Source of the DNA: Branchiostoma floridae
Lineage: Eukaryota; Chordata; Leptocardii; Amphioxiformes; Branchiostomatidae
DNA length: 64,000 nt
Assembly: GCF_000003815.2 (NCBI RefSeq)
Contig: NC_049986.1
Location: 20,866,611 to 20,930,610 of the forward strand
Direction: 5' to 3'
In this document: positions 9,644 to 62,422 of the stretch, in pieces
How positions within the stretch are numbered: the first letter of the stretch is position 1
How the letters are laid out: each line of letters starts with the position of its first letter
Made by a program: the position numbers and the translations under genes
Notes under the pieces: generated by a model
What the model was told of the DNA's origin: nothing
The model's database searches: none
The model's input: only the letters and a program-made list of their open reading frames with translations

Positions 9644-9658
9644 TAAGATGAATACTTG

Positions 9659-41010: not shown

Positions 41011-42398
41011 GATGCGCCTGATACTTCGATCGAACCGCATGTCGCTGTATGTTCGTCGGCACTGTATGGATTACTTTTAATCTTCACGCTTCGTCTCTGC
41101 AGGATGCTCACACTTTATATTTAGTTAATATTATTTTAAAAATTGAGTCCAACTTTAAATAAGTTATTCTTCACAAGTGTTAGCTTTACCTGTTTTAATT
41201 GTAATAACTTTCCTATTCTACAATCCTTATATAACATACATATACCTCGATGCCTAGCGCCCACAGTGAATTGTTTTGTTACAACTTGAATAAAGGAAAC
41301 TTTGAATTAGAATTAGGAAAATTTCCTTTTAGGTGTGTACACATACCTTTCTCATTAGTCATTTAGATGTTCAACAAGTGAATTCATCGATCCTTAAACG
41401 TAAGCATTTCTATTTGCATTGATAAACGTATACAAATGCACAGATTAAAATCGCATAAAGTAAACAATACTTCGTTTTTAAGTAGCTTTATTTCAACAAC
41501 CAAGCGTCACAATGTATACAAACATGCTAAACTAATGCGAGTGGGGTATTTTTCGTCTAAGTATCAAATAAGGGCAAGTCAAGTACAACTGTGGAAGTAA
41601 GAAAAAAGAAAGACAGCTGTGCAAAATAAGTTCTTTGCTCAAAACAAGAGTAGACACGGTGCAAAAACTGCAATGCTACATATTGACATCGCAAATAACA
41701 CAAAAATGGAAATAATCTCCAAACAATACAAGTGATCTAGATCTTGAAATGGCTCTGCAACAATATACGTGAAGCGTGTACGGGTCGTCATCACCAATGA
41801 CATCAGAATAACCAATGAAGGTACGTCTTCTGAGATTGAGTTTGACTTCAGTGTGATAGAATATACAGCAAATAGAGAGGGTCATATAAAATAAGCCACG
41901 TAAAAAAAAGCAACGGGTGACAAGTCTTTTCTGTCGCACAATGCTAAACAGAGTTTTTTTCTTAATTTAGAATTTGCTTTCCTTGAGGTAGAAATCAGTC
42001 AGAAATCGCAACGTTTCCATAAAAAGAACCATGTCATCAAATATTTGCATATGGTAAACGACACAAACACGACAGAGTCCTTATAAACACCGTGATTTTT
42101 TAAAACTATCTTGTCTATCTGTCCCTGTAGAAGCGTGTTCCCCACAAGTGCTATGGACTGTCTGGATACAAATCTACTCAGCAGTATACGCGTGTATGTA
42201 CAGTTCCATAGGGGTGTACATGTGCTTGATAATGTGTTCCTGTAAGTTTGTTGCCTTGCGTCGAGTCATACAAGTTCCACTGGTGGTATTCAAGTGGTCT
42301 GTTGCCTGAATGTGTCTCATATTATGTCGGGACAAGTCTTATGAATTGTTCTCATAAGCCAAAACATGTAGGGTTTTCATGCTAGGGTTTCAAGTGTT
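41011..42398. other. Intergenic and ZNF7 3'UTR
   Basis: The ZNF7 3'UTR runs leftward from 42398 to the AATAAA at 41487-41492 on the minus strand. The uninterrupted site equivalent to the giant-element insertion is at about 41577-41602. Beyond 41480 lies sequence between the ZNF6 promoter and this signal. No other gene is seen. Confidence 0.6.
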
Positions 42399-44303
42399 TT
42401 ATATGCTGTCTGATGAGTGTCCCGAAACCGCAATGTGTTTGTGTAGACTTCCTTTCGTTGTGGAGGAAAAGCAACATTGTTCGCACCTGTACGGCCTCTC
42501 TCCAGTATGTATCATAATATGTGTAGTCAAAGAAGCCTTGTTGGTCGTTTTGTACCCGCAGTCGCCGCAACTGTAGGGTTCATCACCAGTGTGTCTCTTC
42601 ATATGTAGGGAAAGTGCAAATTTGTCAGACGTAATATAGTCACATGTCTCACACACGAAGGGTTTCTCACCGGTATGTGTGAGCTGGTGCCGCTTTAAAT
42701 TGCCCGCTGACGTAGACGAGTAGTCGCACTGGTCACATTTGCAAGGTTTCTCACCTGTATGTATCCTCACATGAGTACGTAGGTGGCAAAGGTGAGTGGT
42801 CGAATAGTCACATTGGCCACACATGTAGGGCTTGTCTCCAGTGTGCTGTGCCAGGTGGTTGATCAAAGTATTCTTCCGTGCAGCAGAATATTCGCAGTGG
42901 TCACATTTGTAGGGTTTCTCCCCCGTGTGTGTCTTCATATGCCTAGAAAGTGAAACTTTTTGAGCTGCCCTGTAGCCGCACTCGCCACACATGTAGGGTC
43001 TGTCACCAGTGTGTTTGAGCATGTGTCGCCTTAAGTTAGTTTTCCATGAAGTAGAATAGTCGCATTGGTCACATTTGTAGGGTTTCTCACCTGTATGTGT
43101 TCTTATATGTTTGGATAGGTCAGACTTTTCAACCGTCCTGTATCCGCACTCCTCACATCTGTAGGGTTTTTCTCCAGTGTGTTTAGCCATGTGTCTGTCT
43201 ATATTCTTCTTATGTGCAGCAGAATATTCGCATTGGTCACACTTATAGGGTTTTTCACCTGTATGTTGTCTCATATGTAAGCTTAAACGATCCCTGGAAA
43301 CCGTCCTGTATCCACAATCTCCACACATGAATGGTTTTTCGCCAGTGTGTTTGGCCATGTGTCGGTCTAAAGTCTTCTTCTGTGCAGCAGAATATTTGCA
43401 TTGGTCACACTTATAGGGTTTCTCACCTGTATGTTTAGCCATGTGTCGGTCTAAACTATTCTTCTGTGCAGCAGAATAGTCACACTGGTCACACTTATAG
43501 GGTTTCTCACCTGTATGTTTAGCCATGTGTCGGTCTAAACTATTCTTCTGTGCAGCAGAATAGTCACACTGGTCACACTTATAGGGTTTCTCACCTGTAT
43601 GTTTTCTCATATGTAAGCTTAAACGAAACCTGTCACCCGTGCTGTATCCACACTCTCCACACGTGAAGGGTTTTTCTTTTTCTCCAGTATGTTTAACCAT
43701 GTGTCGGTCTAAACTATTCTTCTGTGCAGCAGAATATTCGCATTGGTCACACTTGTAGGGTTTCTCACCTGTATGTTTTCTCATATGTAGGATAAGGCTA
43801 GACCTGTAAGCTGTCCTGAATCCACACTCTTCACACTTGTAGGATTTTTCTCCTGAATGTTTAGCTACTATGTGACGGTCTAAAGTGGTTTTCTGTGCAG
43901 CAGCATAGTCACAATGGTCACACTTATATGGTTTCTCACCTGTATGTTTTCTGATATGCCTTGATAGGTCCTGCTTTGAAGATGCCTTAAAGTCACACTC
44001 CATACATGCGAAACTTTTGTTTACACGACACTTCTCTGTATTTTCTGTTAGATCCTGAACGGGAAGATGGTCAGATTTTACCCGAAATGTTTCCTCACAT
44101 ATGATGCCCTCTTCCTTGTCCCACTGTCTCCACGTGTCTAATTTCCCGCTGCTTTTTGTCTCGTCCTTAGGATTTGTAGGTGACTGTTCATCCACAGCAA
44201 TTATGTCTCTGCTTCTGTGCTCCGTTCCAGGGTGTGCAGCTGACAGTTCGTCCACTGGAATCTCGCTGCTTCTCTCCTCTAGGTGACTGTTCATCCACAG
44301 CAA
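42399..44303 (-). CDS. ZNF7: C2H2 zinc-finger protein, 19 fingers, N-terminus disrupted by 103-bp duplication
   Basis: The normal family start is at 44385 (MEERSSEIPVDELSAAHPG, 2 nt after acceptor GTTTAG|AAATGG). A 103-bp tandem duplication (44178-44280 and 44281-44383) shifts the frame, so translation from 44385 stops at 44188 after 65 residues. The open frame 42399-44303 re-enters the second copy of the same N-terminal segment (LEERSSEIPVDELSAAHPG) and continues through DTWRQWDKEEG into 19 fingers, from FACMECDFKASSK to YRCEQCCFSSTTKG, ending HIAVSGHSSDSI. It could be translated from the ATG at 44303 by leaky scanning. The duplication junction also creates a CACCTAG|AG acceptor-like site. 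All fingers are intact, with the alternating YMCGEC / YKCDQC pattern. Confidence 0.85.
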   Translation of the reverse strand: MLWMNSHLEERSSEIPVDELSAAHPGTEHRSRDIIAVDEQSPTNPKDETKSSGKLDTWRQWDKEEGIICEETFRVKSDHLPVQDLTENTEKCRVNKSFACMECDFKASSKQDLSRHIRKHTGEKPYKCDHCDYAAAQKTTLDRHIVAKHSGEKSYKCEECGFRTAYRSSLILHMRKHTGEKPYKCDQCEYSAAQKNSLDRHMVKHTGEKEKPFTCGECGYSTGDRFRLSLHMRKHTGEKPYKCDQCDYSAAQKNSLDRHMAKHTGEKPYKCDQCDYSAAQKNSLDRHMAKHTGEKPYKCDQCKYSAAQKKTLDRHMAKHTGEKPFMCGDCGYRTVSRDRLSLHMRQHTGEKPYKCDQCEYSAAHKKNIDRHMAKHTGEKPYRCEECGYRTVEKSDLSKHIRTHTGEKPYKCDQCDYSTSWKTNLRRHMLKHTGDRPYMCGECGYRAAQKVSLSRHMKTHTGEKPYKCDHCEYSAARKNTLINHLAQHTGDKPYMCGQCDYSTTHLCHLRTHVRIHTGEKPCKCDQCDYSSTSAGNLKRHQLTHTGEKPFVCETCDYITSDKFALSLHMKRHTGDEPYSCGDCGYKTTNKASLTTHIMIHTGERPYRCEQCCFSSTTKGSLHKHIAVSGHSSDSI

Positions 44304-44383
44304 TTATGTCTCTGCTTCTGTGCTCCGTTCCAGGGTGTGCAGCTGACAGTTCGTCCACTGGAATCTCGCTGCTTCTCTCCTCC
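44178..44383 (-). repeat. 103-bp direct tandem duplication in ZNF7 coding start
   Basis: Two copies differ at only one base at their ends (CTCCTCT versus CTCCTCC). The repeat starts at AGGTGACTGTTCATCC on plus (44178 and 44281). A length of 103 is not a multiple of three. ZNF6 and ZNF8 have one copy. Confidence 0.9.
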
Positions 44384-45599: not shown

Positions 45600-45834
45600 T
45601 CAACAACCAAGCGTCGCAATATTTACAAACATGCTAAACTAATACGAGTGAATTTTGTTTCGTATAAATATCAATAAGGGCAAGTCAAGTACAGAATCCA
45701 AAATAATAAGGGAAAATCCATTTTATTCCCTTTTTTTGGCTTCAAAACACAAAAATTAAGCCTTTCTTTTTATAAAAATGCAGCCTTCATGACTTGGTAT
45801 TTGCATTTTTAAGAAACTTTCTTCAAAAAATCAC

Positions 45835-46400
45835 AACTAGATGAGGATATATACTCAGACAAATCAATAATAATCCAGCCTAACCGAGGATATATAATGA
45901 ATTAGAGTTTTGTCCAGCAACTTGGAGGATATATACTCCGCCTGAAGGACGATATATACTCTGATAGAGTATAAATACTCTGCATAAAGGAGGATGGATA
46001 CTCAGTCCGAAAGAATATCTATACTCAGTCGGAAGGAGTATTTATACTCTGCCTGATAGGGTAGAGTATTTATAATCTGATAGAGGATGAATACTCTGCA
46101 TAAAGGAGGATGGACCCTGTGCCTGAAAGAGTATTTATACTCTGCCTGATAGAGGATGAATACTCTACATGAAGGACAATGGTCCCTCTGCCTGAAGGAT
46201 TATTTATACTCTGCTTGGTAGGGAAGAGTATTTATACTCTGATAGAGGATGAATACTCTGCATAAAGGAGGATGGACCCTGTGCCTAAAAAGAGTATTTA
46301 TACTCTTCCTGATAGAGGAACATGAAGGAGAATGGTCCCTCTGCCTGAGGGAGTATTAATACTCTGCTTGAAAGAGTATTTGTACGCTGCCTTAAAATCT
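45835..46400. repeat. Subterminal minisatellite, left arm
   Basis: Tandem, irregular units of about 25-55 bp are built on GAGTATTTATACTC followed by TGCCTGATAGAGGATGAATA-like spacers. The core is a near-palindrome centred on TTTA. The mirror array in the right arm is 58800-59345. Confidence 0.8.
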
Positions 46401-49400
46401 CAGTAGTAGTCAGGGTGTTTTTTTTTTCTGAAAGTCTATCATTACACGATCACCAGTGATTTGATTATGATGTTGAATTTTGCGCGACACCTTTCACAAG
46501 GTAGGCGTATTCCTTTCATACATATACATACATGACACGGTGTATAGAAAGCAGCTAATGTATAATTTACTTATCAAGGTAATATGAAGGGATGATACTT
46601 TTCGCAGATGCTATCAGTAAATACATGATCATTTTATAAGCTGTGACTATCAAAAGCGGCTGGAAAGAGGGGAAATGGGCCAAACAGACGGATTAGTATC
46701 ATGCCAGAGGAGTTAGTCCAATAAAGGAGCAAACTGTACTCCTATAACGGACAAACCCCTCTGGTATGTTATCTGTCTATTTGACCGGTTTCTTTTCTTT
46801 CCAACCGCTCCAGGATTAAAGGCTGATCAAAGGAAACGTAAAACAGTTTATATTAGGCTAACACATGAAGCTAATTTTTACAGTTAAAGCTGTGTTCTGC
46901 ATAAAAGGTACGCTCTCAATTCTAGCTTCATCTTGCAGCTGCTTCTTCCCTCAGCACGAGCGAAACTAGACCATCCTCGCTCAGTACCTCCCTTCGTCCT
47001 TTCAATCCGTTGTTATTCTCTGAGCAGCAACCTGTAGCCAATGAATGAATGAAGAATGACACCTCACCCCACATATTAAGCCTACGGTTTGAGAGAAAAT
47101 ATTGCTTTATCTTCAGTGCTATAGTAGAGAAAGACACTTGAATGCATGCATTGCATGTTTTATAGTATCACATAAATACATACAACAGTGTACAAGAAGA
47201 GCTCAAATTCATGTAGTGACTGCTGAGGACAACAGTCACAAATGCATATTCGACAAACCGATATAAGAAATGGAGCAGGTTGGAGACATGTTCCTTAGAA
47301 ACATTCGATATAAACGGTCAAAAGGAACAGCCATTTATCTAAATCTGCTCAGAAAGAAAAATAGGAATTTGTTACATAAATGTAGGTGTCCAAAATCAAA
47401 GTGATTTCAATTTTTCTCTGCCCTCTATCAATCAAGTCTATCCGTCATTTTATTAACTGTGGTCTAGGTGGACATATGTTACCTATTTCTTCCATTAGAC
47501 AGCTTTCCAGACGTCCGTCGCTGACTCGAAGCGATCCGAAGATGTCTCCTAGGGGACCTGAATAAGTTTGTGGTGAGAACGCGGATACAGTAAGTCTATA
47601 ACATCCGTGGCGCTCCTAACAATGTTTGTTGATAGCAAGTCACCAACTTTGTTAACCCCTATGGCACCATTACACCATGCGATTTGAAACAAACCTACAA
47701 TTGCTTAACAAACGAGCAGGAAACGGACATTTCAAATGTAATTCAGTGTTGACCGTTGACCCTACCGAGTGACCACTAGTAGGAATAATGATTTAACAGG
47801 ACACCTGAAGAAAATTCTATGTCATCAGCTCACTATAGCTCACTTGACACTTTAAGCTGAATAAGTCTTTGAAATCAGTCTCTTTTTTTAAACTGTAGGG
47901 ATTACCCTTAGGCCTAAATGATTGAGAAAGCCCTTTGTAATAGCCATAGGCTAGTTGGGCAGCCCTGACTGTGTGTTCGGTGCAGCCAAACCAATAAATA
48001 AATAAATAAAAGATAAGAAATAAGAAATTCTGAAAAAAAAGCTACATAAGGGACCCTAATTGAAGTAATCTGTAACATATGACACAACATAAAGGTAATG
48101 ACAACAATCTCATGAAAAACACAAAAGCTCAACACACAAATAAAACAAATGTGCCACTGTTTTGGCTCTACACACTACCCCCTAATCTAGTGAACCAACA
48201 TTCCCAAACAATCGGAAAACTTCAAAACATTACAAGGCACATTAGCCGAGAATAGGCGACAAAGAAAATAGATTTTGATTCCAAAATTGAAACCCATTCA
48301 ACGTAACACTGCGATAGATCTGCCTTTTAATTAAAACTAGAGATAAATATGTGTAGTCACACATGCACACAGGGTCGCTTTTAAGTGTAATTTGTGCCAG
48401 GTGAAATTGTAGCTAGGCAATGTTAAAAAGCAGGTGTGAACATATATATACAGCCCTTGTAGTTAGAGGTCAAAGTGTGGGTGGGACAAGGGGGTGAGGC
48501 AGTTGGAAATGGTCTGTCCCAACCTGAACGCTCCATCCTTCTGCAGGAAGAAATGGACTGTCCCCACCTGAATAGACCCCCCAGAAATAAGAAATGGACT
48601 AGCCCAACCTAAATAACCCCTACTTCAGCAAGTTCTAAGTACTTGAGACACACGTACACACGAGGTACATTGTACGAGGGACGCTCGACCAAACAGTGCA
48701 CGTAATACAGCTTGCCGTCCGTTTATTTTTATTACCTACATAAGTTATGGAGATGATCGTCAAAATTTGCATTATCAACATCTTGCTACATTCCTCTTTA
48801 CTTAAGGAACATACTGTATGAATATCGAAAGTGTAACAGCTTTTTGTAATTTTGAAATTGATATGCAAATTATTACCTCATTTGCATAAATTTAACATCT
48901 CATGGTAATCTTGATAACAATTATATTGGACGAAAAGATTAAACACCTATCATTTAACAGTAATGTTTAATTAGTAGTTTTCATTGGAAGTTATGATAAT
49001 GAGCTCCCTCAGAGATACACTATATAGGAATTATAGCAATTATCTATTCAAATAAAATAACAACATATATTCCGTCAAATCAGAAAAATAACTCATATTC
49101 GTCCTTACGTATTGATAGAGAGGAGCTCCGGTGTAATTTTTCCGACCACTACTATATCTACGTGACTCAACCTCTGCTTGGAGAGTAACCCAGGCTAACA
49201 ACACCACCGCTGGACTCCTAGCTCCACATGCCGGTAGCTCATTTGGCCCAGCGGGGTGCGAACTGCTAAGTACCATTGAAGTGACACACGACTTCCAAAC
49301 AGATCTGTCTCGTCATTAGCCTCCATAGCGGGCCTTCTGGGTCTTTTTGTCTTTGGGCTCATAAAACACTTCTGCTGCATATTTGTATTTTGTTATTCTC

Positions 49401-50186
49401 TATCTTATTGCAATAAAAGCAGGCTTTGAATCCAGTATATCATCACAAACATTTATTCTATCGGACACAAAGACTATCGATCTAGTAAGTTACAGTACTT
49501 ACACACATTTAGCCCCTTAGCCTTTAGTTAGTGAACCGCCGCTGGTTGGAACCCTTCCTATCATCAACGGAACTCCCCCTTGACTGTTGCGTATGGTATG
49601 AAGCCTGGTATGAAGGTAACGCCTCCTTTCATGATGTCACGAGCTACGTTACTTCTGCCCCGGTGACCAATCACTGGTATTCTCTTTGGCACTTCAAAGT
49701 CATGCAAAGCTAACTGGTCACCAGAAAAAAACCGGTCTACTGCATACCAAACTCATATAGAGTGAGACCAACATCATGTAAATGTCCGCTGTGCTCCGAC
49801 ATGAAAGCGGACATGGCCAAATACTGAAATAGTGGAATTGTGGGAAAGCTTGGCTTGTTTACACCAGGCGATAATCTTTCAATTTCTTGGCAGGCGAAAC
49901 GGAGAGGGTAATCCACGTGACCCGATGCTGGTACCACAGCAAAGTCCCTCGAGCCCCGTACATGCTCGCGCTCAACTTGATTGCACCACCAGTCCAAATT
50001 TCAAGTAACTTGCTATGTGTTTGAATCTTGATATATATATATCCGAACGACGAGGCTTTAAAAGAAAACTGTATCCTTGAGAGTCGCCCGGAACAACTTA
50101 TAATTGTGCTGGGACTATCGCATCCTTCCAAACAGCTAAGCTTTGACTGTATCTGTTACCAAAACACTTCCAGATGCCCGCGCACA

Positions 50187-50646
50187 TGAAACAACCAGAG
50201 GGGCGAGTAAGAACAGAAAGAAACAACACCCCGACTCCCGGGATTCGAACCCGCGCCAAACCCCGGGCAGCCGGATCACAAATCGAACGTGCAAACCGTT
50301 CGGCCAAAAGGCTTAAGCCGTTAGGCGTCTTCGGTTTAGCAGTCCTTGAACACCACTGTTACACTACTCCCCCTTTTCTTTTCAAGATTCGTCCTCGAAT
50401 CTCCGAGTTCGACATCCCTGTGTGGCACATCTGCTAGCCTGTTACTCACAGGGTCGGCATGGGAACCAGTGAAACAACCAGAGGGGCGAGTAAGAACAGA
50501 AAGAAACAACACCCCGACTCCCGGGATTCGAACCCGCGCCAAACCCCGGGCAGCCGGATCACAAATCGAACGTGCAAACCGTTCGGCCAAAAGGCTTAAG
50601 CCGTTAGGCGTCTTCGGTTTAGCAGTCCTTGAACACCACTGTTACA
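50187..50646 (-). mobile_element. Helenus-type TRIM retrotransposon with identical tRNA-like LTRs
   Basis: In the minus-strand sense: LTR 50646-50470 and LTR 50363-50187, both 177 bp and identical as I read them, around a 106-bp internal region. TSD is CACA at 50183-50186 and 50647-50650. The right arm of the giant repeat shows the empty site GCGCACATAATAAC, which confirms insertion and TSD length. After one base the internal region begins TGGTTCCCATGCCGACC (primer binding site) and ends AAAAGAAAAGGGGGAGTAG (polypurine tract). Each LTR holds a tRNA-like unit with A box TGGCCGAACGG (50296-50306 in the left copy) and B box GGTTCGAATCC (50241-50251). There is no ORF, so it must be mobilised in trans by an autonomous LTR element. 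Confidence 0.9.
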
Positions 50647-52113
50647 CACATAATAACTGTCATCTGAAGTCAGAAATTCAGGTCAAGATTCGACAAGTAA
50701 ATGGAATCACAACCGCACTCTACAACTAGAAAGTGTTAGAAAACCCACAAAGGCAAACAGTGACAATCAACTGATGAGAGACCGTCCAAACTTGGAACTC
50801 AGAAGTCCTACCTGCCTTGTAACGATCTACACAACCCAACTCGACCCCCCCCCCCCCTTCTCCAGCTTAACAACATATCGTCTCCCCAAAGAACATGTCC
50901 ATAAGTTTTATATACATCAAGAGGATCACTGTATAATTTCAGAAAGGAGTTCTACATACCAAAGAACATTGGGGAGCTGTCCATTCAGAAGCAGGCGTGT
51001 ATCGCTAGAAATGTCTTTTCCCATGAAGATAAGGCGCCAGCGCGCCTGCTGACCGTTGATCAAATGTTCTCCATATTTGTTACAGCGGGGTTTGTCCGCT
51101 CAAGGTACGCCCTCGTCTCTCCGTTGCCAGGATGCAATTTTGGCACGAAGATACTGCAGTAGGCCACGAAATAAGTTGAACTCGGATCAACATAACTCTT
51201 TTAACTGTGAGAAAGGATATGGACCCCATGGCTTGACCTGTAGCTTATCTGCACTGTTGATCACTGTTTCACCGTACCAGTTCGGCCCCCTAGCTTGTTG
51301 ATGACCCCGGCCCGCCAGATGTTGGCCCGCCCGCCGCCGTGTCACACTGAAAGGTGACCCAGGCTTGTCTTACAAGACCCTATTCTTCAAGCAGATGTTG
51401 GGTTAGTGAGGAGGAAAAGCGCTGGTCGGGATTTCGGAGACAGCGGCTACTGCTATACTCCGACCCGATCCCCGATTGGATATTATGTGTGAAGCGTTTC
51501 TGCAGGTTTCTGTTTGCCCGGTGTTTATTTTTCCGACAGGTGAATGTTCAATTCTACAGTTAAGCCTACCCGAATAAACTCTACTCTACGCTACACATAT
51601 AAGACATATAAGATCATATAAAGTAAATAGGAGAAGGTGAGGACGGAAACAGATTGAAGTGTCGGAGGGAAACATAGACATTACCTTATTGTTACAACAC
51701 GGCTGATATCTATTATCAAATGTCATGGTCAAGCCCTGTACGTGTATTTTTACTTGTCGACATGTGTACACTTCACACATTTCCAAACGTACACATCTGA
51801 ACTGTACCCATTACTAAAAAGCGTCGTGGTGGGTTATCTGTTGCGGTTAGACGACCTTAGACGTTAGAACTCACGTTGAAAAATTACCGTGAATCTCAGA
51901 GCCAGCTTTATGAGAAGCTCCGGTTGGTTTTGTCATACTAAAATTTATAAGGGGAGGTTTGGCTCTCAAATTTTTGCTGGTTTTGTCATACTAAAATTTA
52001 TGAGGGGTGGTTTGCAATTGGTTGTTGCAGATTTTTAACTTGGTCGGTCCTCCTGTTAATTATTCAACCTGTACATTGCGGTTAGACGCTATATGTATGC
52101 CTACCAGCATAAC

Positions 52114-53707
52114 TCTTTAACCAGAGGTTTGACTCTGAGTGGGGACTAATGCTAGGAGGCATAAGGCCGCAGCAAGTTAATTTTTATTGATGACATCCTC
52201 TGCAGACTGGAAAAAAACTCAAGATGGGAAATGTTCAAGATCGACACGATAAACGTTGTAACAAGAATTAAAGTGACAAAATATGGCATTAAAACCAACA
52301 AGGCATTCGTCCCTCTAAGTCGTTCACTATAGTTTAGTCAAAGTGACACTAGTGTGATGCGGTAGACAAGTATTAATAACCATGTTGGCAACTACACTCG
52401 TTACTTTTATGAATGTTGGTGCCACTGTTACAACTATAATCCATCATGTTTCACATCTACAACTACAGTCAGGGCTCTAGTGTCGATTCTAGTCCCAATT
52501 CTACATACAATTTATAGGTTACAACACAACTTATTTGCCCATTTTGGTCTGTCTGCGGTCTGACCATCCCTAAAACCAGGCGAAGACTAACGAGCCCGTC
52601 GATGTCATCCATAAAATTTACTTGCTGTGGCCTGGAAAACAGGCACCCAATACAGGGCGGATAGACGGCCGGTGACACCAGTAAAAAGCCAGACCCGAAA
52701 CCAAACCTAGCATTACTTCCCACGCAGAGGTTCGGCTCCGGCACAAGTGGTCGACTTATTTTCGGCCCCGGATTTTCCCTGAATAGTTTGGTCGACAACA
52801 CCTTAAAGAAAAGGAGCCGAACTTCTACTTCGAGAGTAGGAAATGATTTTTTTTGTCAATTCTTAAAAGTGTGGAAATGACTTATGTAGTTTGCAGCCCA
52901 ACGGAGGAACTCTAGTCTTCCCCAAGGGCAGGTCAAATTTCCTTGGCTTCTTTTATTCCAAGGTGTTTATGCTGCATGGTAGCCAGACTTTTTCAGGGGT
53001 TGTACAGCCCAGCCACCAAATTGAACAGGAATTCAGCATAGCCTTCTGGGTACAAATGACTTCAGTCAAGGGTCATTACTCTCCAGCTCGGCTGTTTTTT
53101 TTTTACGTTTTGTATAAGTCGTTTTTATCGGGCTTGCTATTGAAACACTAGAGGCAAGTAGAACAGTTTTTTTTAAACCCCAAACTCGCTCCCGGGATTT
53201 AAAACCGTGACCTATCGCGACCAAATTCTAAGCATTAAGTTCATGTAAATATGGTAGAAACGTTTGAATGTTGTCGTCTTAAATTAGGACGGTATCTTTC
53301 TCGCGAGTGCCAGCTTGCTTGGGTGCTTCGCAACAGCTGTTTACTGAATTTTCCGGGGTTTTTTTTTTTTGCAATAAAAAGATAACAGCAATTCCCTCAG
53401 GCCTATTTCCCGTGGTCAAACGACAACAATACCTTGGCCTAACGCCTGTTGTACAACCCCTGAAAACGTCCAACACAGCCGTGAGCAGCCTATGAATGTC
53501 CTGCCACTAGGGAAAACAAGTTCTTCTGTTGGGGCTGCCATCAGCCGTCCCTGGATGTTCAATATTAGCCCCCAAAAGATCCTTTCCTCCTTTTCAAACA
53601 GAAGTTCAACTTAGGCTGGTTTTGACGTGTTTCTGTTTGACCTTTGAATCATTTTGTCCCAGTCGGCCACGGTATGTTTCCTTTGATTTTATAAACAAGT
53701 AAGAAAA
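52114..53707. other. Spacer between the arms of the giant inverted repeat
   Basis: Single-copy within the window. It holds an internal inverted pair, TTTTCAGGGGTTGTACA near 52991 facing TGTACAACCCCTGAAAA near 53450, possibly a small hAT-like MITE, but no direct repeat flanks it. The longest frame (52469-52801 minus, 110 residues) resembles nothing I know and is probably not coding. Confidence 0.5.
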
Positions 53708-56700
53708 ATGCTGGTAGTCATACATATAACGTCTAACCGCAATGTACAGGTTAAACAGAGGACCGACCAAGTTAAAAATCTGCCACAGCCAAACCTCCCC
53801 TTATAAATTTTAGTATGACAAAACCAGCCGGAGCTTCTCATAAAGCTGGCTCTGAGATTCACGGTAATTTTTCAACGTGAGTTCTAACATCTAAGGTCGT
53901 TTAACTGCAACAGATAACCCACCACGATGCTTTTTAGTAATGGGTACAGTTCAGATGTGTACGTTTGGAAATGTGTAAAGTGTACACATGTCAACAAGTA
54001 AAAATACACGTACAGGGCTTGACCATGACATTTGATAATAGATATCAACCGTGCTGTAACAATAAGGTAATGCCTATGTTTTCCTCCGACGCTTCAATCT
54101 GTTTCCGTCCTCACCTTCTCCTATTTACTTTATATGATCTTATATGTGTAGCGTAGAGTAGAGTTTATTCGGGTAGGTTTAACTGTAGAATTGAACATTC
54201 ACCTGTCAGAAAAACAAATACCGGGCAAACAGAAACCTGCAGAAACGCTTCACACATAATATCCAATCGGGGATCGGGTCGGAGTATAGCAGTAGCCGCT
54301 GTCTCCGAAATCCCGACCAGCGCTTTTCCTCCTCACTAACCCAACATCTGCTTGAAGAATAGGGTCTTGTAAGACAAGCCTGGGTCACCTTTCAGTGTGA
54401 CACGGCGGCGGGCGGGCCAACATCTGGCGGGCCGGGGTCATCAACAGGCTAGGGGGCCGAACTGGTACGGTGAAACAGTGATCAACAGTGCAGATAAGCT
54501 ACAGGTCAAGCCATGGGGTCCATATCCTTTCTCACAGTTAAAAGAGTTATGTTGATTCGAGTTCAACTTATTTCGTGGCCTACTGCAGTATCTTCGTGCC
54601 AAAATTGCATCCTGGCAACGGAGAGACGAGGGCGTACCTTGAGCGGACAAACCCTGCTGTAACAAATATGGAGAACATTTGATCAACGGTCAGCAGGCGC
54701 GCTGGCGCCTTATCTTCATGGGAAAAGACATTTCTAGCGATACACGCCTGCTTCTGAATGGACAGCTCCACAATGTTCTTTGGTATGTAGAACTCCTTTC
54801 TGAAATTATACAGTGATCCTCTTGATGTATATAAAACTTATGGACATGTTCTTTGGGGAGACGATATGTTGTTAAGCTGGAGAAGGGGGGAGGGGGTCGA
54901 GTTGGGTAGTGTAGATCGTTACAAGGCAGGTAGGACTTCTGAGTTCCAAGTTTGGACGGTTTCTCATCAGTTGATTGTCACTGTTTGCCTTTGTGGGTTT
55001 TCTAACACTTTCTAGTTGTAGAGTGCGGTTGTGATTCCATTTACTTGTCGAATCTTGACCTGAATTTCTGACTTCAGATGACAGTTATTATGTGCGCGGG
55101 CATCTGGAAGTGTTTTGGTAACAGATACAGTCAAAGCTTAGCTGTTTGGAAGGATGCGATAGTCCCAGCACAATTATAAGTTGTTCCGGGCGACTCTCAA
55201 GGATACAGTTTTCTTTTAAAGCCTCGTCGTTCGGATATATATATATCAAGATTCAAACACATAGCAAGTTACTTGAAATTTGGACTGGTGGTGCAATCAA
55301 GTTGAGCGCGAGCATGTACGGGGCTCGAGGGACTTTGCTGTGGTACCAGCATCGGGTCACGTGGATTACCCTCTCCGTTTCGCCTGCCAAGAAATTGAAA
55401 GATTATCGCCTGGTGTAAACAAGCCAAGCTTTCCCACAATTCCACTATTTCAGTATTTGGCCATGTCCGCTTTCATGTCGGAGCACAGCGGACATTTACA
55501 TGATGTTGGTCTCACTCTATATGAGTTTGGTATGCAGTAGACCGGTTTTTTTCTGGTGACCAGTTAGCTTTGCATGACTTTGAAGTGCCAAAGAGAATAC
55601 CAGTGATTGGTCACCGGGGCAGAAGTAACGTAGCTCGTGACATCATGAAAGGAGGCGTTACCTTCATACCAGGCTTCATACCATACGCAACAGTCAAGGG
55701 GGAGTTCCGTTGATGATAGGAAGGGTTCCAACCAGCGGCGGTTCACTAACTAAAGGCTAAAGGGCTAAATGTGTGTAAGTACTGTAACTTACTAGATCGA
55801 TAGTCTTTGTGTCCGATAGAATAAATGTTTGTGATGATATACTGGATTCAAAGCCTGCTTTTATTGCAATAAGATAGAGAATAACAAAGATACAAATATG
55901 CAGCAGAAGTGTTTTATGAGCCCAAAGACAAAAAGACCCAGAAGGCCCGCTATGGAGGCTAATGACGAGACAGATCTGTTTGGAAGTCGTGTGTCACTTC
56001 AGTGGTACTTAGCAGTTCGCACCCCGCTGGGCCAAATGAGCTACCGGCATGTGGAGCTAGGAGTCCAGCGGTGGTGTTGTTAGCCTGGGTTACTCTCCAA
56101 GCAGAGGTTGAGTCACTTAGATATAATAGTAGTGGTCGGAAAAATTACACCGGAGCTCCTCTCTATCAATACGTAAGGACGAATATGAGTTATTTTTCTG
56201 ATTTGACGGAATATATGTTGTTATTTTATTTGAATAGATAATTGCTATAATTCCTATATAGTGTATCTCTGAGGGAGCTCATTATCATAACTTCCAATGA
56301 AAACTACTAATTAAACATTACTGTTAAATGATAGGTGTTTAATCTTTTCGTCCAATATAATTGTTATCAAGATTACCATGAGATGTTAAATTTATGCAAA
56401 TGAGGTAATAATTTGCATATCAATTTCAAAATTACAAAAAGCTGTTACACTTTCGATATTCATACAGTATGTTCCTTAAGTAAAGAGGAATGTAGCAAGA
56501 TGTTGATAATGCAAATTTTGACGATCATCTCCATAACTTATGTAGGTAATAAAAATAAACGGACGGCAAGCTGTATTACGTGCACTGTTTGGTCGAGCGT
56601 CCCTCGTACAATGTACCTCGTGTGTACGTGTGTCTCAAGTACTTAGAACTTGCTGAAGTAGGGGTTATTCAGGTTGGGCTAGTCCATTTCTTATTTCTGG

Positions 56701-59503
56701 GGGGTCTATTCAGGTGGGGACAGTCCATTTCTTCCTACAGAAGGATGGAGCGTTCAGGTTGGGACAGACCATTTCCAACTGCCTCACCCCCTTGTCCCAC
56801 CCACACTTTGACCTCTAACTACAAGGGCTGTATATATATGTTCACACCTGCTTTTTAACATTGGCTAGGTACAATTTCACCTGGCACAAATTACACTTAA
56901 AAGCGACCCTGTGTGCATGTGTGACTACACATATTTATCTCTAGTTTTAATTAAAAGGCACATCTATCGCAGTGTTACGTTGAATGGGTTTCAATTTTGG
57001 AATCAAAATCTATTTTCTTTGTCGCCTATTCTCGGCTAATGTGCCTTGTAATGTTTTGAAGTTTTCCGATTGTTTGGGAATGTTGGTTCACTAGATTAGG
57101 GGGTAGTGTGTAGAGCCAAAACAGTGGCACATTTGTTTTATTTGTGTGTTGAGCTTTTGTGTTTTTCATGAGATTGTTGTCATTACCTTTATGTTGTGCC
57201 ATATGTTACAGATTACTTCAATTAGGGTCCCTTATGTAGCTTTTTTTCAGAATTTCTTATTTATTTCTCAATCATTTAGGCCTAAGGGTAATCCCTACAG
57301 TTTAAAAAAAGACTGATTTCAAAGACTTATTCAGCTTAAAGTGTCAAGTGAGTTATAGTGAGCTGATGACATAGAATTTTCTTCAGGTGTCCTGTTAAAT
57401 CATTATTCCTACTAGTGGTCACTCGGTAGGGTCAACGGTCAACACTGAATTACATTTGAAATGTCCGTTTCCTGCTCGTTTGTTAAGCAATTGTAGGTTT
57501 GTTTCAAATCGCATGGTGTAATGGTGCCATAGGGGTTAACAAAGTTGGTGACTTGCTATCAACAAACATTGTTAGGAGCGCCACGGATGTTATAGACTTA
57601 CTGTATCCGCGTTCTCACCACAAACTTATTCAGGTCCCCTAGGAGACATCTTCGGATCGCTTCGAGTCAGCGACGGACGTCTGGAAAGCTGTCTAATGGA
57701 AGAAATAGGTAACATATGTCCACCTAGACCACAGTTGATAAAATGACGGATAGACTTGATTGATAGGGGGCAGAGAAAAATTGAAATCACTTTGATTTTG
57801 GACACCTACATTTATGTAACAAATTCCTATTTTTCTTTCTGAGCAGATTAAGATAAATGGCTGTTCCTTTTGACTGTTTATATCGAATGTTTCTAAGGAA
57901 CATGTCTCCAACCTGCTCCATTTCTTATATCGGTTTGTCGAATATGCATTTGTGACTGTTGTCCTCAGCAGTCACTACATGAATTTGAGCTCTTCTTGTA
58001 CACTGTTGTATGTATTTATGTGATACTATAAAACATGCAATGCATGCATTCAAGTGTCTTTCTCTACTATAGCACTGAAGATAAAGCAATATTTTCTCTC
58101 AAACCGTAGGCTTAATATGTGGGGTGAGATTTCATTTTTCATTCATTCATTGGCTACAGGTTGCTGCTCAGAGAATAACAGCGGATTGAAAGGACGAAGG
58201 GAGGTACTGAGCGAGGATGGTCTAGTTTCGCTCGTGCTGAGGGAAGAAGCAGCTGCAAGATGAAGCTAGAATTGAGAGCGTACCTTTTATGCAGAACACA
58301 GCTTTAACTGTAAAAATTAGCTTCATGTGTTAGCCTAATATAAACTGTTTTACGTTTCCTTTGATCAGCCTTTATTCCTGGAGCGGTTGGAAAGAAAAGA
58401 AATCGTTCAAATAGACAGATAACATACCAGAGGGGTTTGTCCGTTGTAGGGGTACAGATTGCTCATTTAGCGGACTAACTCCTCTGACATGATACTAATA
58501 CGTCTATTTGGCCCATTTCTCCTCTTCCAGCCGCTTTTGATAGTCGCAGCTTATCAATTGATCATGTATTTACTGATAGCATCTACGAAAATTATCATCC
58601 CTTCATATTACCTAGATGAGTAAAATATACATTAGCTGCTTTCTATACACCGTGTCATGTATGTATATGTTTGAAAGGAATACGCCTACCTTGTGAAAGG
58701 TGTCGCGCAAAATTGAACATCATAATCAAATCACTGGTGATTGTGTAATAATAGACTTTCAGAAAAAAAAACACCCTGACTACTACTGAGATTTTAAGGC
58801 AACGTATAAATACTCTTTCAAGCTGAGACTGAGTATAAATACTCCTTCAGGCAGAGGGACCATTCTCCTTCATGTTCCTCTATCAGGAAGAGTATAAATA
58901 CTCTTTTTAGGCACAGGGTCCATCCTCCTTTGTGCAGAGTATTCATCCTCTATCAGAGTATAAATACTCTTCCCTATCAGGCAGAGTATAAATACTCCTT
59001 CAGGCAGAGGGACCATTCTCCTTCATGTAGAGTGTTCATCCTCTATCAGGCAGAGTATAAATACTCTTTCAGGCACATGGTCCGTCCTCCTTTATGCAGA
59101 GTATTCATCCTCTATCAGAGTATAAATACTCTACCCAATCAGGCAGAGTATAAATACTCCTTCAGGCAGAGTATAAATACTCTTTCGGACAGAGTATCCA
59201 TCCTCCTTTACGCAGAGTATTTATACTCTATCAGAGTATATATCGTCCTCCAGCCGGAGTATATATCCTCCAAGCTGCTGGACAAAACTCTAATTCATTA
59301 TATATCCTCGGTTAGGCTGGATTATTATTGATTTGTTTGAGTACATATACTCATCTAGTTGTGATTTTTTAAAGAAAGTTTCTTAAAAATGCAAATACCA
59401 AGTCATGAAGGCTGCATTTTGATAAAAAGAAAGGCTTAATTTTTGTGTTTTGAAGCCGAAAAAAGGGAACAAAATGGATTTTCCCTTATTATTTTGGATT
59501 CTG
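53708..59503 (-). repeat. Right arm of the giant inverted repeat
   Basis: Complementary to the left arm; lacks the Helenus insertion and the ~95-bp insertion, and so serves as the pre-insertion state for both. No convincing gene. Confidence 0.8.
58800..59345. repeat. Subterminal minisatellite, right arm
   Basis: At least ten GAGTATAAATACTC cores separated by CCTTCAGGCAGAG-like spacers and GAGTATTCATCCTCTATCA units. The 133-residue plus-strand frame at 58930-59331 is only this repeat translated. Confidence 0.85.
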
Positions 59504-60074
59504 TTAGTTACTGTAGAAGTAAGAAAAGACAAAGACAGCTGTGCAAAATAACTTTCTTGCCCAAAACAATAGAGAGGGTGACATAAAATAAGCCAAGTAA
59601 AATAGCCACGGTTGAGAAGGCTTTTCCGTCGCACAATGCTAAACAGAGTTTTTTTTCTTAATTAAGAATTTGCTTTCCTCGAGGTAAAAATCAGTCAGAA
59701 ACCGCAACTTTTCCATCTATAGAACCATGCGCGTAATTAAATATTTGCATATGGTAAACAACACAAACACTAAAGAAGCCTAATGAACAACGTGAAGTCC
59801 TTAACTTTCTTGTCCATCTGTCCCTGTGGAAGCGTGTTCACTACAAGTGCTATGGACTGTCTGGATAAAAAGCAGCATTCTGTATGCATGCACAGTTCCA
59901 AAGGATTGTGTTTTGATTATGTGTAAGTACCATTACGTCGAGTCATACAAGTCCCACTAGTGGTATTCACGTGGTCTCTTGCCTGAATGTGTCTCATGAT
60001 GTCGGGACAAGTCAGATGTGTTGGTCTCATAAGCCACAGACATGCAGGGTTTTCATGCTATGGTTTTAAGTGTT
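59504..60074 (-). other. ZNF8 proximal 3'UTR
   Basis: Alignable with the ZNF7 3'UTR (41590-42398) and the ZNF6 3' region. It ends abruptly at the giant element, and no AATAAA is seen before the border. Confidence 0.6.
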
Positions 60075-61877
60075 TTATATGCTGTCAGGTAAGTGTCCAG
60101 AAACAGCAATATGTCTCTTTAGACTTCCTTTTTCTGTGGCGGAATAGCCACACTGTTCACATTTATATGGTCTCTCTCCAGTATGTATCCTAATATGCCT
60201 AGTTAAAGAATTCCTGTTAGTTGTCTTGTACCCGCAGTCCTCACAACCGTAGGGTTCATCACCAGTGTGTCTCTTCATATGTAAGGAAAGTGTAAACTTG
60301 TCAGACGTACTATAGTCACATGTCTCACACACGAAGGGTTTCTCACCGGTATGTGTGAGCTGGTGCCGCTTTAAGCTGCCTGTTGACGAACACGAGAAGT
60401 CACACTGGTCACATTTGTAAGGTTTCTCACCTGTATGTTTCCTCACGTGTACACGTAGGCTACCAAGGTGAGTTGTCGAATAGCCACATTGGCCGCACAT
60501 GTAGGACTTGTCTCCAGTGTGTTGTGCTAAGTGGCTGATTAAATTGCCCTTCACTGCTGCGGAATATTCGCAGAGGTGACACTTGTAGGGTTTCTCACCC
60601 GTGTGTGTCCTCATATGCCGAGAAAGTGAAACTTTTTGAGCCGCCCTGTAGCCGCACTCCCCACACATGTAGGGTCTGTCACCAGTGTGTTTGAGCATAT
60701 GTCGCCTTAAGTGAGTTTTCCATGAAGTAGAATAGTCGCATTGGTCACATTTGTAGGGTTTCTCACCGCTATGAATTCGCATATGACTGGTTAGATCTGG
60801 CTTGCGAGCCGTCCTGTATTCGCACTGTGGACACGTGTAGGGTTTCTCACTTTGATGTCGTATCGCGTGTTGGACTAGGCAGCCTTTGCGTGCAGTACGA
60901 TAGTCACACTCATCACATTTATATTTCTTATCTTCTTTCTCACCCGTGTGCCCTAGGAAGTGTCGGTCTAAATGGTATTTGCGTGAGGTGGAATATTCAC
61001 ACTGGTCACATTTGTAGGGTTTTTCACCTGTATGTTTCACCATATGTCGGGACAGATGAGACCTGTCAGCCGTCCTGTATCCGCACTCCTCGCACATGTA
61101 GGGTTTTTCTCCATTATGTTTAGCCATGTGTCGGTCTAGATTCCTCTTCTGTGTAGCAGAATATTCGCATTGGTCACACTTATAGGGTTTCTCACCTGTA
61201 TGTTTTCTCATATGTACACTTATTTGAGACCTGACAGCCGTCCTGAATCCACACTCTTCGCACATGTAGGGTTTTTCTCCATTGTGTTTAGCCATGTGTC
61301 GGTCTAGATTCCTCTTCTGTGTAGCAGAATATTCGCATTGGTCACACTTATAGGGTTTCTCGCCTGTATGTTTTCTCATATGTACACTTATTTGAGACCT
61401 GACAGCCGTCCTGAATCCACACTCTTCACACATGTAGGGTTTCTCTCCAGTGTGTTTAGCTATTATGTGTTTGTCTAAGCTGCTTTTTTGTGCAGCAGCA
61501 TAGTCACACTGGTCACACTTATATGGTTTTTCACCTGTATGTTTTCTGATATGTCTTAATAGGAAACATTTTGAAGATGCCCTAAAGTCGCAGTCCGAAC
61601 ATGCAAAGCGTTTATCCACTTTACGCTTTACCGCATTCTCTGTTTGATCCTGAACGGGAAGATGGTCAGATTTTACCCCAAATGTTTCCTCACATGGGAC
61701 GCCCTCTTCCTTGTCCTGCTGCCTCCCCGTGTCTAATTGCTCGCTGCTGTTTGTCTCGTCCTTGGGATGTGTAAGTGACTGTTCAGTCATAGGAATTATG
61801 TCCCTGCTTCTGTCTTCCATTCCAGGATGTGTAGCTGGCAGTTCGTCCACTGGAATCTCACTGCTTCTCTCCTCCAT
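60075..61877 (-). CDS. ZNF8: C2H2 zinc-finger protein, 18 fingers
   Basis: The start at 61877 (MEERSSEIPVDELPATHPG) lies 2 nt after acceptor TTTAAG|AAATGG; 600 residues, fully open. The N-terminus of about 90 residues includes DTGRQQDKEEGVPCEETFG. Eighteen fingers alternate between YMCEEC/YMCGEC and YKCDQC types. Fingers 3-4 and 5-6 are the same two-finger pair (YMCEECGFRTAVRSQ and YKCDQCEYSATQKRN), repeated with only silent differences as a 168-bp unit. The long linker HTGEKEDKKYKC after finger 8 is shared with ZNF4. It ends HIAVSGHLPDSI. It is the only intact member of the ZNF6-8 group. Its 3'UTR is interrupted by the giant inverted repeat. Confidence 0.92.
   Translation of the reverse strand: MEERSSEIPVDELPATHPGMEDRSRDIIPMTEQSLTHPKDETNSSEQLDTGRQQDKEEGVPCEETFGVKSDHLPVQDQTENAVKRKVDKRFACSDCDFRASSKCFLLRHIRKHTGEKPYKCDQCDYAAAQKSSLDKHIIAKHTGEKPYMCEECGFRTAVRSQISVHMRKHTGEKPYKCDQCEYSATQKRNLDRHMAKHNGEKPYMCEECGFRTAVRSQISVHMRKHTGEKPYKCDQCEYSATQKRNLDRHMAKHNGEKPYMCEECGYRTADRSHLSRHMVKHTGEKPYKCDQCEYSTSRKYHLDRHFLGHTGEKEDKKYKCDECDYRTARKGCLVQHAIRHQSEKPYTCPQCEYRTARKPDLTSHMRIHSGEKPYKCDQCDYSTSWKTHLRRHMLKHTGDRPYMCGECGYRAAQKVSLSRHMRTHTGEKPYKCHLCEYSAAVKGNLISHLAQHTGDKSYMCGQCGYSTTHLGSLRVHVRKHTGEKPYKCDQCDFSCSSTGSLKRHQLTHTGEKPFVCETCDYSTSDKFTLSLHMKRHTGDEPYGCEDCGYKTTNRNSLTRHIRIHTGERPYKCEQCGYSATEKGSLKRHIAVSGHLPDSI
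61105..61440 (-). repeat. 168-bp two-finger tandem duplication in ZNF8
   Basis: Units 61105-61272 and 61273-61440 differ by only a few bases (for example CTTCGCACATG versus CTTCACACATG), all silent. This is direct evidence of growth by two-finger steps. Confidence 0.85.
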
Positions 61878-61879
61878 TT

Positions 61880-62422
61880 CTTAAACAATAATAAATAAAC
61901 GTTGAATGAGGAGCGGTTTCAACAGAAGCGAGACCCCTACCTAACTGATGAGCTCTACTTTACTCTACTCTAAAGAGATTTATTAGTGACATGTATGTAC
62001 ACAGTCAATAAATAAACGGTTTAATCTAAAGGGAAGGTGCCATGAATTAGAATACACACGCGCGCGCAGCTACAGCTGTATGCACACACGCGCACACGCG
62101 CACACGATTTTAATACCGTGACTACCAATTCATCATGCCCCCCTCCCACATTGTGGAGCGGAACAATAGACGTAAAATCTGGGCATCAACAACAACATTC
62201 GCTACTGACGTTTTATAACCCTCATTACTGATATTCATAAGTTCTTACGGCACCATTATCAAACACTTGACGTAAAAAAGGTATTACCTGTCGGTTTATA
62301 ATGTAGCCTGGTTGATATAGCCCCCAAATCACAGTAGTTCCAAGGAATTGTCTATTTTCCTTATCCAATATGGCGGACACGCGGAATTCCAAAGTCATAA
62401 AATAATGAGTCCAAAGGTCAAA
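61880..62422 (-). promoter_or_regulatory. ZNF8 intron, exon 1 and promoter
   Basis: The donor CGACAG|GTAATACC (GT at 62286-62287) and acceptor AG at 61880-61881 give an intron of about 408 bp, the shortest in the group. The YY1-type motif CCAATATGGCGGACAC is at 62365-62380 and the DR1-like AGTCCAAAGGTCA at 62408-62420. The intron carries a CG/CA alternating tract (62060-62105). Confidence 0.7.

Follow-up and report, generated by a model that had tools for sequence, protein, structure and literature searches.

Polintons or Mavericks are large elements with inverted ends and 6-bp target duplications, and foldback-like elements have in published cases been related to transposases of the Mutator/Phantom or P type. 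Galileo, of the P superfamily in Drosophila, is described as having non-autonomous copies made almost entirely of long, internally repetitive terminal inverted repeats (TIRs) of up to ~1.25 kb with 7-bp flanking sequences; its TIRs are reported to grow through recruitment of inverted internal sequence and to be longest in copies without a transposase, its central regions are common to subfamilies with different ends, and chimeric copies with diverged TIRs and unmatched target duplications occur (PMC3573991). Tetris (PMC4079207) and Tm1 (PMC3169594) are likewise presented as foldback-like, with long TIRs that contain tandem repeats and with non-autonomous derivatives, Tm1 making 9-bp target duplications. 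For Sola2, 4-bp target duplications in AT-rich targets (AWWT and similar) and TIRs of 12-21 bp are given (PMC3627910), and Teratorn is reported as a giant herpesvirus-piggyBac composite with long inverted repeats and 18-bp TIRs (PMC6431247).

The stretch of DNA that we analysed (the window) comprises 64,000 nt of the forward strand of Branchiostoma floridae (GCF_000003815.2, NC_049986.1 positions 20,866,611-20,930,610). The original prediction had described in it a 13.8-kb inverted repeat with arms of about 6.4 and 5.8 kb, a spacer of about 1.6 kb and many stretches identical between the arms. Both a repeat search and BLAST of the window against itself bore this out, with collinear inverted blocks running from 45691/59504 inwards to 52117/53701 (E = 0.0 for the main blocks) and a spacer of 1583 bp. 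Comparison with other copies left the structure as proposed and moved its ends, placed before at 45692..59503, two bases outward (Table 1); the other copies read AACAG...CTGTT and the window copy TACAG...CTGTT. There are exactly two occurrences of CAGAATCCAAAATAATAAGG in the window, one at each end and in inverted orientation. In a global alignment the arms differ at 107 of 5794 columns (98.15% identity), and their longest identical run is 799 bases; shuffling the difference positions 5000 times never gave a run of this length (mean 279), which is a measure of how the differences cluster and not of the existence of the repeat. The earlier description had overlooked a later insertion in the left arm, which with its target duplication (CACA at 50183-50186 and 50647-50650) takes up 464 bases (50183-50646) and is due to a TRIM-like element with a second copy in the window at 34382-34827. 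The dispersed repeat present in both arms must either predate the arm duplication or have been copied across since. No Pfam match was found in six frames of the left arm and spacer, in agreement with the predicted lack of a transposase of its own, and Rfam at gathering threshold gave no match inside the element and one elsewhere in the window.

Table 1. Features of the inverted-repeat element and its empty site (window coordinates).
Feature	Position	Strand	Description
Paralogous empty site in adjacent zinc-finger unit	41560..41620	+	Junction ~41587/41588
Whole element	45690..59505	.	Ends TACAGAATCC...GGATTCTGTT; AACAG at most other ends of the group
Left arm	45690..52117	+	~6.4 kb, including nested 460-bp TRIM-like element and 87-bp insertion
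Left terminus	45690..45718	+	29-bp pattern AACAGAATCCAAAATAATAAGGGAAAATC, 1 mismatch
Outer left arm	45691..46942	+	1.25 kb; 4.6-5.1% from seven other arms compared
Left subterminal array	45843..46364	.	10 matches to 14-bp palindrome GAGTATWWATACTC (up to 1 mismatch), ~23-bp register
Middle of left arm	46943..51500	+	26 differences in 4003 aligned bases vs right arm
Left-arm-only insertion	47928..48014	+	87 bp; not present in either arm of three further copies
Dispersed repeat within arm	48335..49118	.	Found in both arms
Nested TRIM-like element	50187..50646	.	Left arm only; 460 bp, identical terminal repeats (178 bp as aligned)
Inner end of left arm	51501..52117	+	24 differences in 541 vs right arm; falls with left arms from two further copies
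Spacer	52118..53700	.	1583 bp; internal inverted repeats
Dispersed repeat nested in spacer	~52160-52633	.	Among the matches listed, many genome relatives at 70-75% identity
Right arm	53701..59505	-	~5.8 kb, reverse complement of left arm
Right subterminal array	58831..59352	.	11 matches to 14-bp palindrome GAGTATWWATACTC
Right terminus	59477..59505	-	Inverted copy of left terminus; exact AACAGAATCCAAAATAATAAGGGAAAATC

We consider it likely that six closely related non-autonomous cut-and-paste copies, this element among them, owe their movement to a DUF7869 protein acting in trans, and that their arms were formed by inverted duplication and are kept alike by conversion. Foldback elements had been set aside as not clearly fitting. 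However, the structure is foldback-like: the long inverted ends are internally repetitive, rich in tandem repeats, and little of the element lies outside the arms. The resemblance to Galileo extends to the diverged TIRs and unmatched target duplication of the window copy, whereas the arms are several times longer (5.8-6.4 kb) and the AACAG-ended group has 4-bp duplications; moreover, arms of kilobases with nested dispersed repeats set the element apart from the other foldback-like elements. Neither the left arm and spacer nor the frames scanned in the giant relatives treated below gave a Pfam match to Mutator/Phantom or P-type transposases, DNA polymerase B or a retroviral-type integrase, and piggyBac was not matched in the B. 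floridae frames scanned.

The element sits in a tandemly duplicated zinc-finger region and is a clean insertion relative to the empty site in the adjacent unit; its flanks, CAAG and AGTT, form no exact target duplication. Such surroundings and flanks would suit a local inverted segmental duplication of the zinc-finger cluster without any transposon, but the probability of this is negligible, since it is already refuted by same-ended copies on other chromosomes, together with the empty site. Mid-arm DNA (88-100% identity) matches both arms, in inverted orientation, at 6/6 loci. Four copies, of 12.5-16.7 kb, have both ends, and in the three besides the window copy the arms measure 5.3-5.7 kb. 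A seventh palindrome (C3:3440961-3454921, 13.96 kb, arms ~5.8 kb) has a window-type interior between ends of another type, and its arms are 96-97% identical to each other and 76-86% identical to the window arm in the longer matches. As the two-armed structure recurs at six loci and at this diverged seventh, the palindrome is not an assembly accident. Head-to-head fusion of two alleles is thus extremely improbable: the heterozygosity of 3.2-4.2% given for amphioxus genomes in one report (PMC12500494) is comparable in size to the arm divergence and a 103-bp exact tandem duplication lies in the left flank (44177-44382), yet both junctions are clean against the empty site and the arms bear insertions of their own, one of them with its own target duplication. 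Weaker one-sided mid-arm matches (67-82% or partial) lie at C3:3450179-3452017, C6:6092937-6094498 and C9:15794600-15795615. The first was considered as a single-armed progenitor and rejected when the locus turned out on inspection to be two-armed; the opposite side of the C9 match reads N, and the C6 or the C9 locus could be a single-armed relative.

The terminus AACAGAATCC... has at least 74 matches in the genome at up to 3 mismatches (34 plus, 40 minus), and the reversed-pattern control has none. With further copies sharing these ends, and the left arm and spacer free of any Pfam transposase, the proposed long-TIR, non-autonomous transposon family was upheld. A search with the ends for other copies and target duplications had also been proposed; it yielded the copies and exact 4-bp duplications in 17 of 25 end pairs (mismatched left and right flanks agree in 2/600), these being absent from the window copy, E2 and six other pairs. 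The 4-bp length recalls Sola2, but AWWT accounts for only 1/17 of the duplications and the TIRs of the group run from hundreds of bases to kilobases; the 6 bp of Polintons are not approached, a 5-bp match occurring in 0/25 pairs. A Tc1/mariner-like TA target, to which the left TA of the window copy had pointed, was ruled out because other ends read AA and the duplications lie outside AA/TT. Arrays of 14-bp palindromes are subterminal in 8/8 left ends examined and also at C3:3440961; the palindrome types include GAGTATWWATACTC (the window type), GAGTCATATGACTC and GGGGCGATCGCCC. All 21 matches of GAGTATWWATACTC in the window fall within its two arrays, against a whole-window expectation of 0.07. 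The end arrays contain TATAAATA-like cores, and two arms of 5.8 kb would give dsRNA if transcribed through, as expected of a locus maintained for hairpin RNA and serving as a source of siRNAs. Such a role is very unlikely, given that the element behaves as a mobile family and that PMC6396948, where it treats B. lanceolatum small-RNA libraries, finds no siRNA class; the window locus is unmentioned there.

As for the enzyme, two larger elements that share these ends, of 33.6 and 59 kb, carry a gene with the Pfam domain DUF7869, whose exons inside these end pairs reach 5e-12 and 5.5e-14 in their best pieces, and both end pairs have exact target duplications. The N-terminal exons of the two genes are 46% identical, and in both giant elements this exon lies ~10 kb from an element end and is directed toward it. 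Judged by its sequence, DUF7869 has acidic motifs that fit a DDE-type enzyme; the motif GHTHED occurs only in other DUF7869 genes of the genome and is absent from the two end-paired genes. Two accessory genes are common to both giant-element lineages, and the ParB-like gene of the 59-kb element has two stops. The 29-kb twin on C19 gave no DUF7869 match, the relevant stretch probably lying inside a run of N. The Pfam scan of the giant relatives covered four stretches on one strand (one in part) and one stretch on both, and no other transposase family appeared in these frames. Sub-cut-off matches in a giant element were to RFX_DNA_binding (0.029), Glutenin_hmw (0.0036) and Ig_TR130_2nd (0.08). 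A profile search of solved structures with DUF7869 returned a single match at E 0.13, which we took as chance, and searches with the accessory genes, as two single proteins, returned none and one at 0.84. A viral contig collection held relatives of neither the terminus nor DUF7869. The original prediction had named a known autonomous family with these ends as an outcome that would overturn it. This outcome was borne out in part: larger same-ended elements do exist, two of them with a transposase-like gene, but in the literature searched no match to a named family emerged. Our literature search found no paper on DUF7869 and, mostly among titles and abstract openings, no description of these ends; the family may be undescribed, as had been predicted.

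Similarity between the window arms and the 33.6- and 29.2-kb elements is confined to the outer 95-113 bp (80-82%), and relics of the genes of those elements were not found in the window arms at E 1e-3. Since the DUF7869 gene is absent from the left arm and spacer by Pfam, the window copy is at most a non-autonomous member. A DUF7869-domain protein from the same-ended giant relatives would then mobilise it in trans, with the outer TIR and the subterminal 14-bp palindrome array as its binding sites. It is also possible, although unlikely, that the transposon family is the same and its transposase a different one, the DUF7869 gene being a passenger of the giant elements. No DUF7869-bearing element with the window palindrome type was found among the end pairs seen, and any of the other conserved genes of the giant elements could participate. 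On the other hand, DUF7869 is present in both divergent lineages of giant element, with its N-terminal exon pointing at the nearby end, its motifs suit a DDE enzyme, and the scanned frames offer no competing transposase family.

Regarding the arms, C7 and C14 each contain, in either arm, a relic of an exon that lies upstream in the DUF7869 gene. E7 likewise has a second gene represented by a relic in each arm, and a six-frame Pfam search over most of its left part gave no match. The presence of gene relics in both arms points to arm growth by inverted duplication of internal sequence, which may have proceeded by fold-back synthesis leading from one TIR onto the other or by template switching in post-excision gap repair. 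Ends would also be exchangeable between families, which would account for the divergence of the outermost 1.25 kb on the left of the window copy and for the composite C3:3440961-3454921. More tentatively, and with somewhat less than even confidence, we propose an unassigned group of animal DNA transposons, giant (29-59 kb) and multi-gene, that have DUF7869 proteins as their transposases. Every lineage would possess a subterminal palindrome code of its own and a transposase that reads it, and giant palindromes would have arisen from the group repeatedly by inverted duplication, as parasites of a parasite that swap ends between families and keep their arms alike by conversion. A domain of unknown function would gain a probable one, that of transposase, and the 17 natural pairs of ends flanked by exact target duplications are material for testing it. 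In this family, palindromes whose arms approach 6 kb persist and spread.

Divergence along the arms bears on how they are kept alike. In the outer 1.25 kb the seven arms other than the window left arm are 0.5-1.8% apart, and no branch of the outer tree is well supported. An edge effect, with conversion failing near both ends, was dropped for this zone because the divergence comes from the window left arm alone, and was kept for the inner zone only. In the inner tree (470 bp, six arms of three copies) left and right arms separate with support 100/99, at 3.5-4.3% between sides; label shuffles matched the observed value in 51/500 and 40/500, the tree having only six rows. The grouping by side across three copies implies a palindrome older than these copies. 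In the middle tree (3.2 kb, eight arms) the two arms of a copy pair in E2 and E3 (100/99) and in the window (91/88), and those of E5 do not; within-copy distances of the four copies are 0.10, 0.16, 0.64 and 0.64%, against 0.61-0.99% between copies. Together, the arm trees indicate a palindrome older than the copies, with exchange of sequence between the two arm middles of a copy. Gene conversion from arm to arm would thus keep the arms similar, the innermost 0.5 kb of the window copy not being reached. That the arms are alike from youth of the palindrome, or from remaking of the arms of each copy in one step, and not from continuing conversion, is distinctly improbable. Only four copies were compared, the window and E5 pair less well or not at all, and the arm stretch 4957-5800 shows no clean grouping by copy (the E2 arms are 1.48% apart there, above the distance of either from several copies). 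However, inner ends follow side while the middles of E2 and E3 differ by 0.10-0.16% within a copy and 0.6-1.0% between copies, and the C3 palindrome keeps its own arms alike at 14-24% from the window arms in the longer matches. One-step remaking of part of an arm, itself a kind of conversion, could still have a share. Because inner ends keep to their side and some middles follow their copy, exchange between arms could become measurable in a dispersed multi-copy family. E3 was omitted from the inner tree since its right arm ends short; in the inner matrix its left arm is nearest to the window right arm (3.05%).

The original prediction of a giant inverted repeat with arms of about 6 kb was recovered by window-against-window BLAST and a repeat search: the inverted blocks are collinear between 45691/59504 and 52117/53701, and the arms align end to end. 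Our verdict is that the window element behaves as a non-autonomous cut-and-paste element of foldback type, its arms probably kept alike by conversion; a foldback had earlier been thought not to fit clearly. Of 5794 aligned columns, 107 differ between the arms, and they are unevenly distributed: the outer 1250 account for 57 of them, the middle 4003 for 26 and the inner 541 for 24. None of 5000 shuffles equalled the longest stretch of identity, which is 799 bases. An 87-bp insertion is confined to the left arm, as is a 464-base gap corresponding to a TRIM-like element of 460 bp, whose terminal repeats are identical, plus its CACA target duplication; both insertions are absent from both arms of the three other copies compared. 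The window also holds a second copy of the TRIM-like element and a separate 181-bp inverted repeat, 99% identical, with its halves about 0.8 kb apart.

The window element is a discrete insertion. A neighbouring zinc-finger unit retains the unoccupied site at about 41587/41588, where the left flank GGGCAAGTCAAG runs on into TACAACTGTGG and the right flank resumes at the same place. Similarity to this unit is 97% for the left flank and 81-87% for the right, a gap that may be due to conversion having stopped at the 13.8-kb heterology. Where similarity to the unit goes from 85% to 97% lies an exact 103-bp tandem duplication, which may be genuine or an error introduced where contigs were joined. 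The window element lies between two members of an array of related minus-strand ORFs, which we take to be zinc-finger-type from their HTGEKP linkers. A minus-strand 5S rRNA match (40.6 bits, barely over threshold) is perhaps a 5S-derived SINE or pseudogene.

Searching the 513-Mb assembly with the arm ends, as had been suggested, returned further copies on contigs C8, C15, C3 and C9. Both ends are present in four copies, the window element and E2, E3 and E5, the latter three with arms of 5.3-5.7 kb, and two C3 copies have one recognisable end apiece. Among 40 of 791 candidates, a 2-kb mid-arm probe at 88% match or better found both arms, inverted, in six of six loci, and gave weak one-sided matches at three more. 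One of these three, on C3, is a palindrome of 13.96 kb whose arms, about 5.8 kb each, are 96-97% alike; both of them match the window arm, with 76-86% identity in the longer matches. Since two-armed copies, this one included, exist at other loci, it is very unlikely that the window palindrome arose as an assembly artefact. The ends of the C3 palindrome carry a GGGCGATCGCCC array of the C16 type, and thus interiors and ends appear to have been exchanged between families. This locus makes an old origin of the arrangement more credible and brings end-swapping into the picture, with our overall weighing unchanged.

Coordinates of elements and other features (window positions unless a contig or stretch is named)
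Feature	Location	Target duplication	Remarks
E2	C8:3163590-3180288		
E3	C15:3770711-3783245		
E5	C8:24238384-24251316		
C3 palindrome (L081-L082)	C3:3440961-3454921		
33.6-kb element (L021)	C8:22788281-22821852	CTGT	Pfam DUF7869 exon by exon
59-kb element	C16:3519922-3578932	ATTG	second, diverged DUF7869-type gene; exons at 3570088, 3571005, 3573929
29.2-kb twin	C19	TCAG	N-terminal exon at 99%
Apparent extra N-terminal exon, 59-kb element	L040:5892-6101		near right end
Relative of C16 genes	C4:28.69-28.72 Mb		
Gene-fragment cluster	C6:~19.5-28 Mb		
Miniature 1.07-kb element	C12:15037887-15038952	ATAT	smallest end pair
Second TRIM-like copy	34382-34827		
181-bp inverted repeat	9656-9836 / 10654-10834		
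103-bp tandem duplication	44177-44382		
Zinc-finger-type ORFs	15602-44303 (several), 60078-61880		minus strand
5S rRNA match	12011-12126		minus strand

The eight arms of the four two-ended copies suggest how the palindrome evolved. In the inner 470 bp (six rows, the two of E3 being left out as its right arm ends early), left arms group together and right arms group together with support of 100/99, the sides being 3.5-4.3% apart; label shuffles matched these groupings in 51 and 40 of 500, owing to the few rows. In the matrix the closest arm to the left arm of E3 is the right arm of the window element (3.05%), and the E3 right arm stands 6.7-9.6% away from the others. In the middle 3.2 kb (eight rows) arms pair by copy in E2 and E3 at 100/99 and in the window element at 91/88; within-copy distances are 0.10% for E2, 0.16% for E3 and 0.64% for both the window element and E5, against 0.61-0.99% between copies. 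The E5 arms are unpaired there, its right arm being 0.61% from the E2 left arm. Positions 4957-5800 (0.84 kb) do not group by copy, with within-copy distances of 0.83% (window), 1.48% (E2), 0.59% (E3) and 0.47% (E5). As inner ends sort by side and the E2 and E3 middles by copy, the trees indicate that the palindrome predates the spread of these copies and that arms have since exchanged sequence within at least E2 and E3, with weaker support for the window element itself. In its outer 1.25 kb the left arm of the window element differs by 4.6-5.1% from each of the seven other arms; the tree of this segment has no well-supported branch and the eight arms offer no donor. This diverged end and the missing target duplication recall the chimeric copies of Galileo (PMC3573991).

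By its termini, the window element belongs to a AACAGAATCC-ended group present in this genome. At three mismatches or fewer, 74 sites match the 29-bp terminus and none the reversed pattern. Pairing by eye gave 25 facing end pairs, spaced 1.07-59 kb, and 24 unpaired ends. The target duplications sought at the ends were found in the group and not exactly at the window copy: an exact 4-bp duplication flanks 17 of the 25 pairs (mismatched left and right flanks agreed in 2 of 600), 5-bp agreement occurs in none of the 25, and the window flanks, CAAG and AGTT, do not match. The other pairs lacking an exact duplication are E2, C2, C3:3440961, C5:3583500, C11, C4:31167856 and C166, the last spanning 47.4 kb. 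On target length, Sola is a possible placement for the group.

As had been noted, no transposase is visible in the window element: a six-frame scan of its left arm and spacer found no Pfam domain. Candidate transposase genes, of the DUF7869 type, occur in giant relatives with the same ends (table). The best pieces in the 33.6-kb element score 5e-12 and 5.5e-14 (Pfam), and its N-terminal exon is 46% identical to that of the C16 gene. The C19 twin gave no DUF7869 match in the genome profile search; that stretch probably falls in a 5.3-kb run of N. LSLIVDG and RENKN are common to the 33.6-kb and C16 genes, DNC occurs in the former, and GHTHED is found in three other DUF7869 genes of the genome and in neither of these; by motif shape, not structure, we take the motifs to fit a DDE-type enzyme. 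DUF7869 has 70 exon matches in this genome versus none in 14 control genomes, and no mention in the literature searched. Both giant lineages share accessory gene 1 (C16 version 40% identical, two stops), with a presumably ParB-like motif, and accessory gene 2, without known match (C16 version 36%, E 7e-7). A C4 relative of the C16 genes showed no matching ends in the genome terminus search. The DUF7869 exons of the 33.6-kb element are separated by long repeats, CT-rich and microsatellite-like, and by a run of N, and what looks like an extra N-terminal exon of the gene lies in the 59-kb element itself.

All eight left ends examined have a tandem array beginning about 200-270 bp from the terminus, with a period of 23-28 bp and a 14-bp palindrome. 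The palindrome is GAGTATWWATACTC in the window element and E6, GAGTCATATGACTC with near variants in the 33.6-kb and 29.2-kb elements and E7, and GGGGCGATCGCCC in C16, C14 and C7, with the same type in C3:3440961. On this basis E7 falls in the 33.6-kb lineage, and the C16 lineage takes in C14, C7 and C3:3440961; none of the end pairs yielded a DUF7869-bearing partner for the window's type.

The 33.6- and 29.2-kb elements have TIRs of 0.77-0.80 kb. Those of the derivatives are longer: C7 has about 3.2 kb, C14 has 1.5 kb with patches as far as 2.7 kb, E7 has 5-6 kb in patches, and E6, itself 3.7 kb in size, has 1.7 kb. Both arms of C7 and C14 carry a relic of an exon upstream of the DUF7869 exons (in C7, 59% over 69 residues, E ~1e-22), taken to be the N-terminal part of that gene. 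Both arms of E7 carry a relic of accessory gene 2 at about 1.2-1.3 kb from their ends; the identity is 43% and each relic has three stops (E 2.8e-6 and 6.3e-4). Internal sequence was therefore duplicated in inverted form more than once in this group. The window family's arms hold no relic of giant-element genes at E 1e-3; they may have originated in the same way. Many fragments of DUF7869 and the accessory genes are clustered within C6, in a segment that may be a graveyard or heterochromatin.
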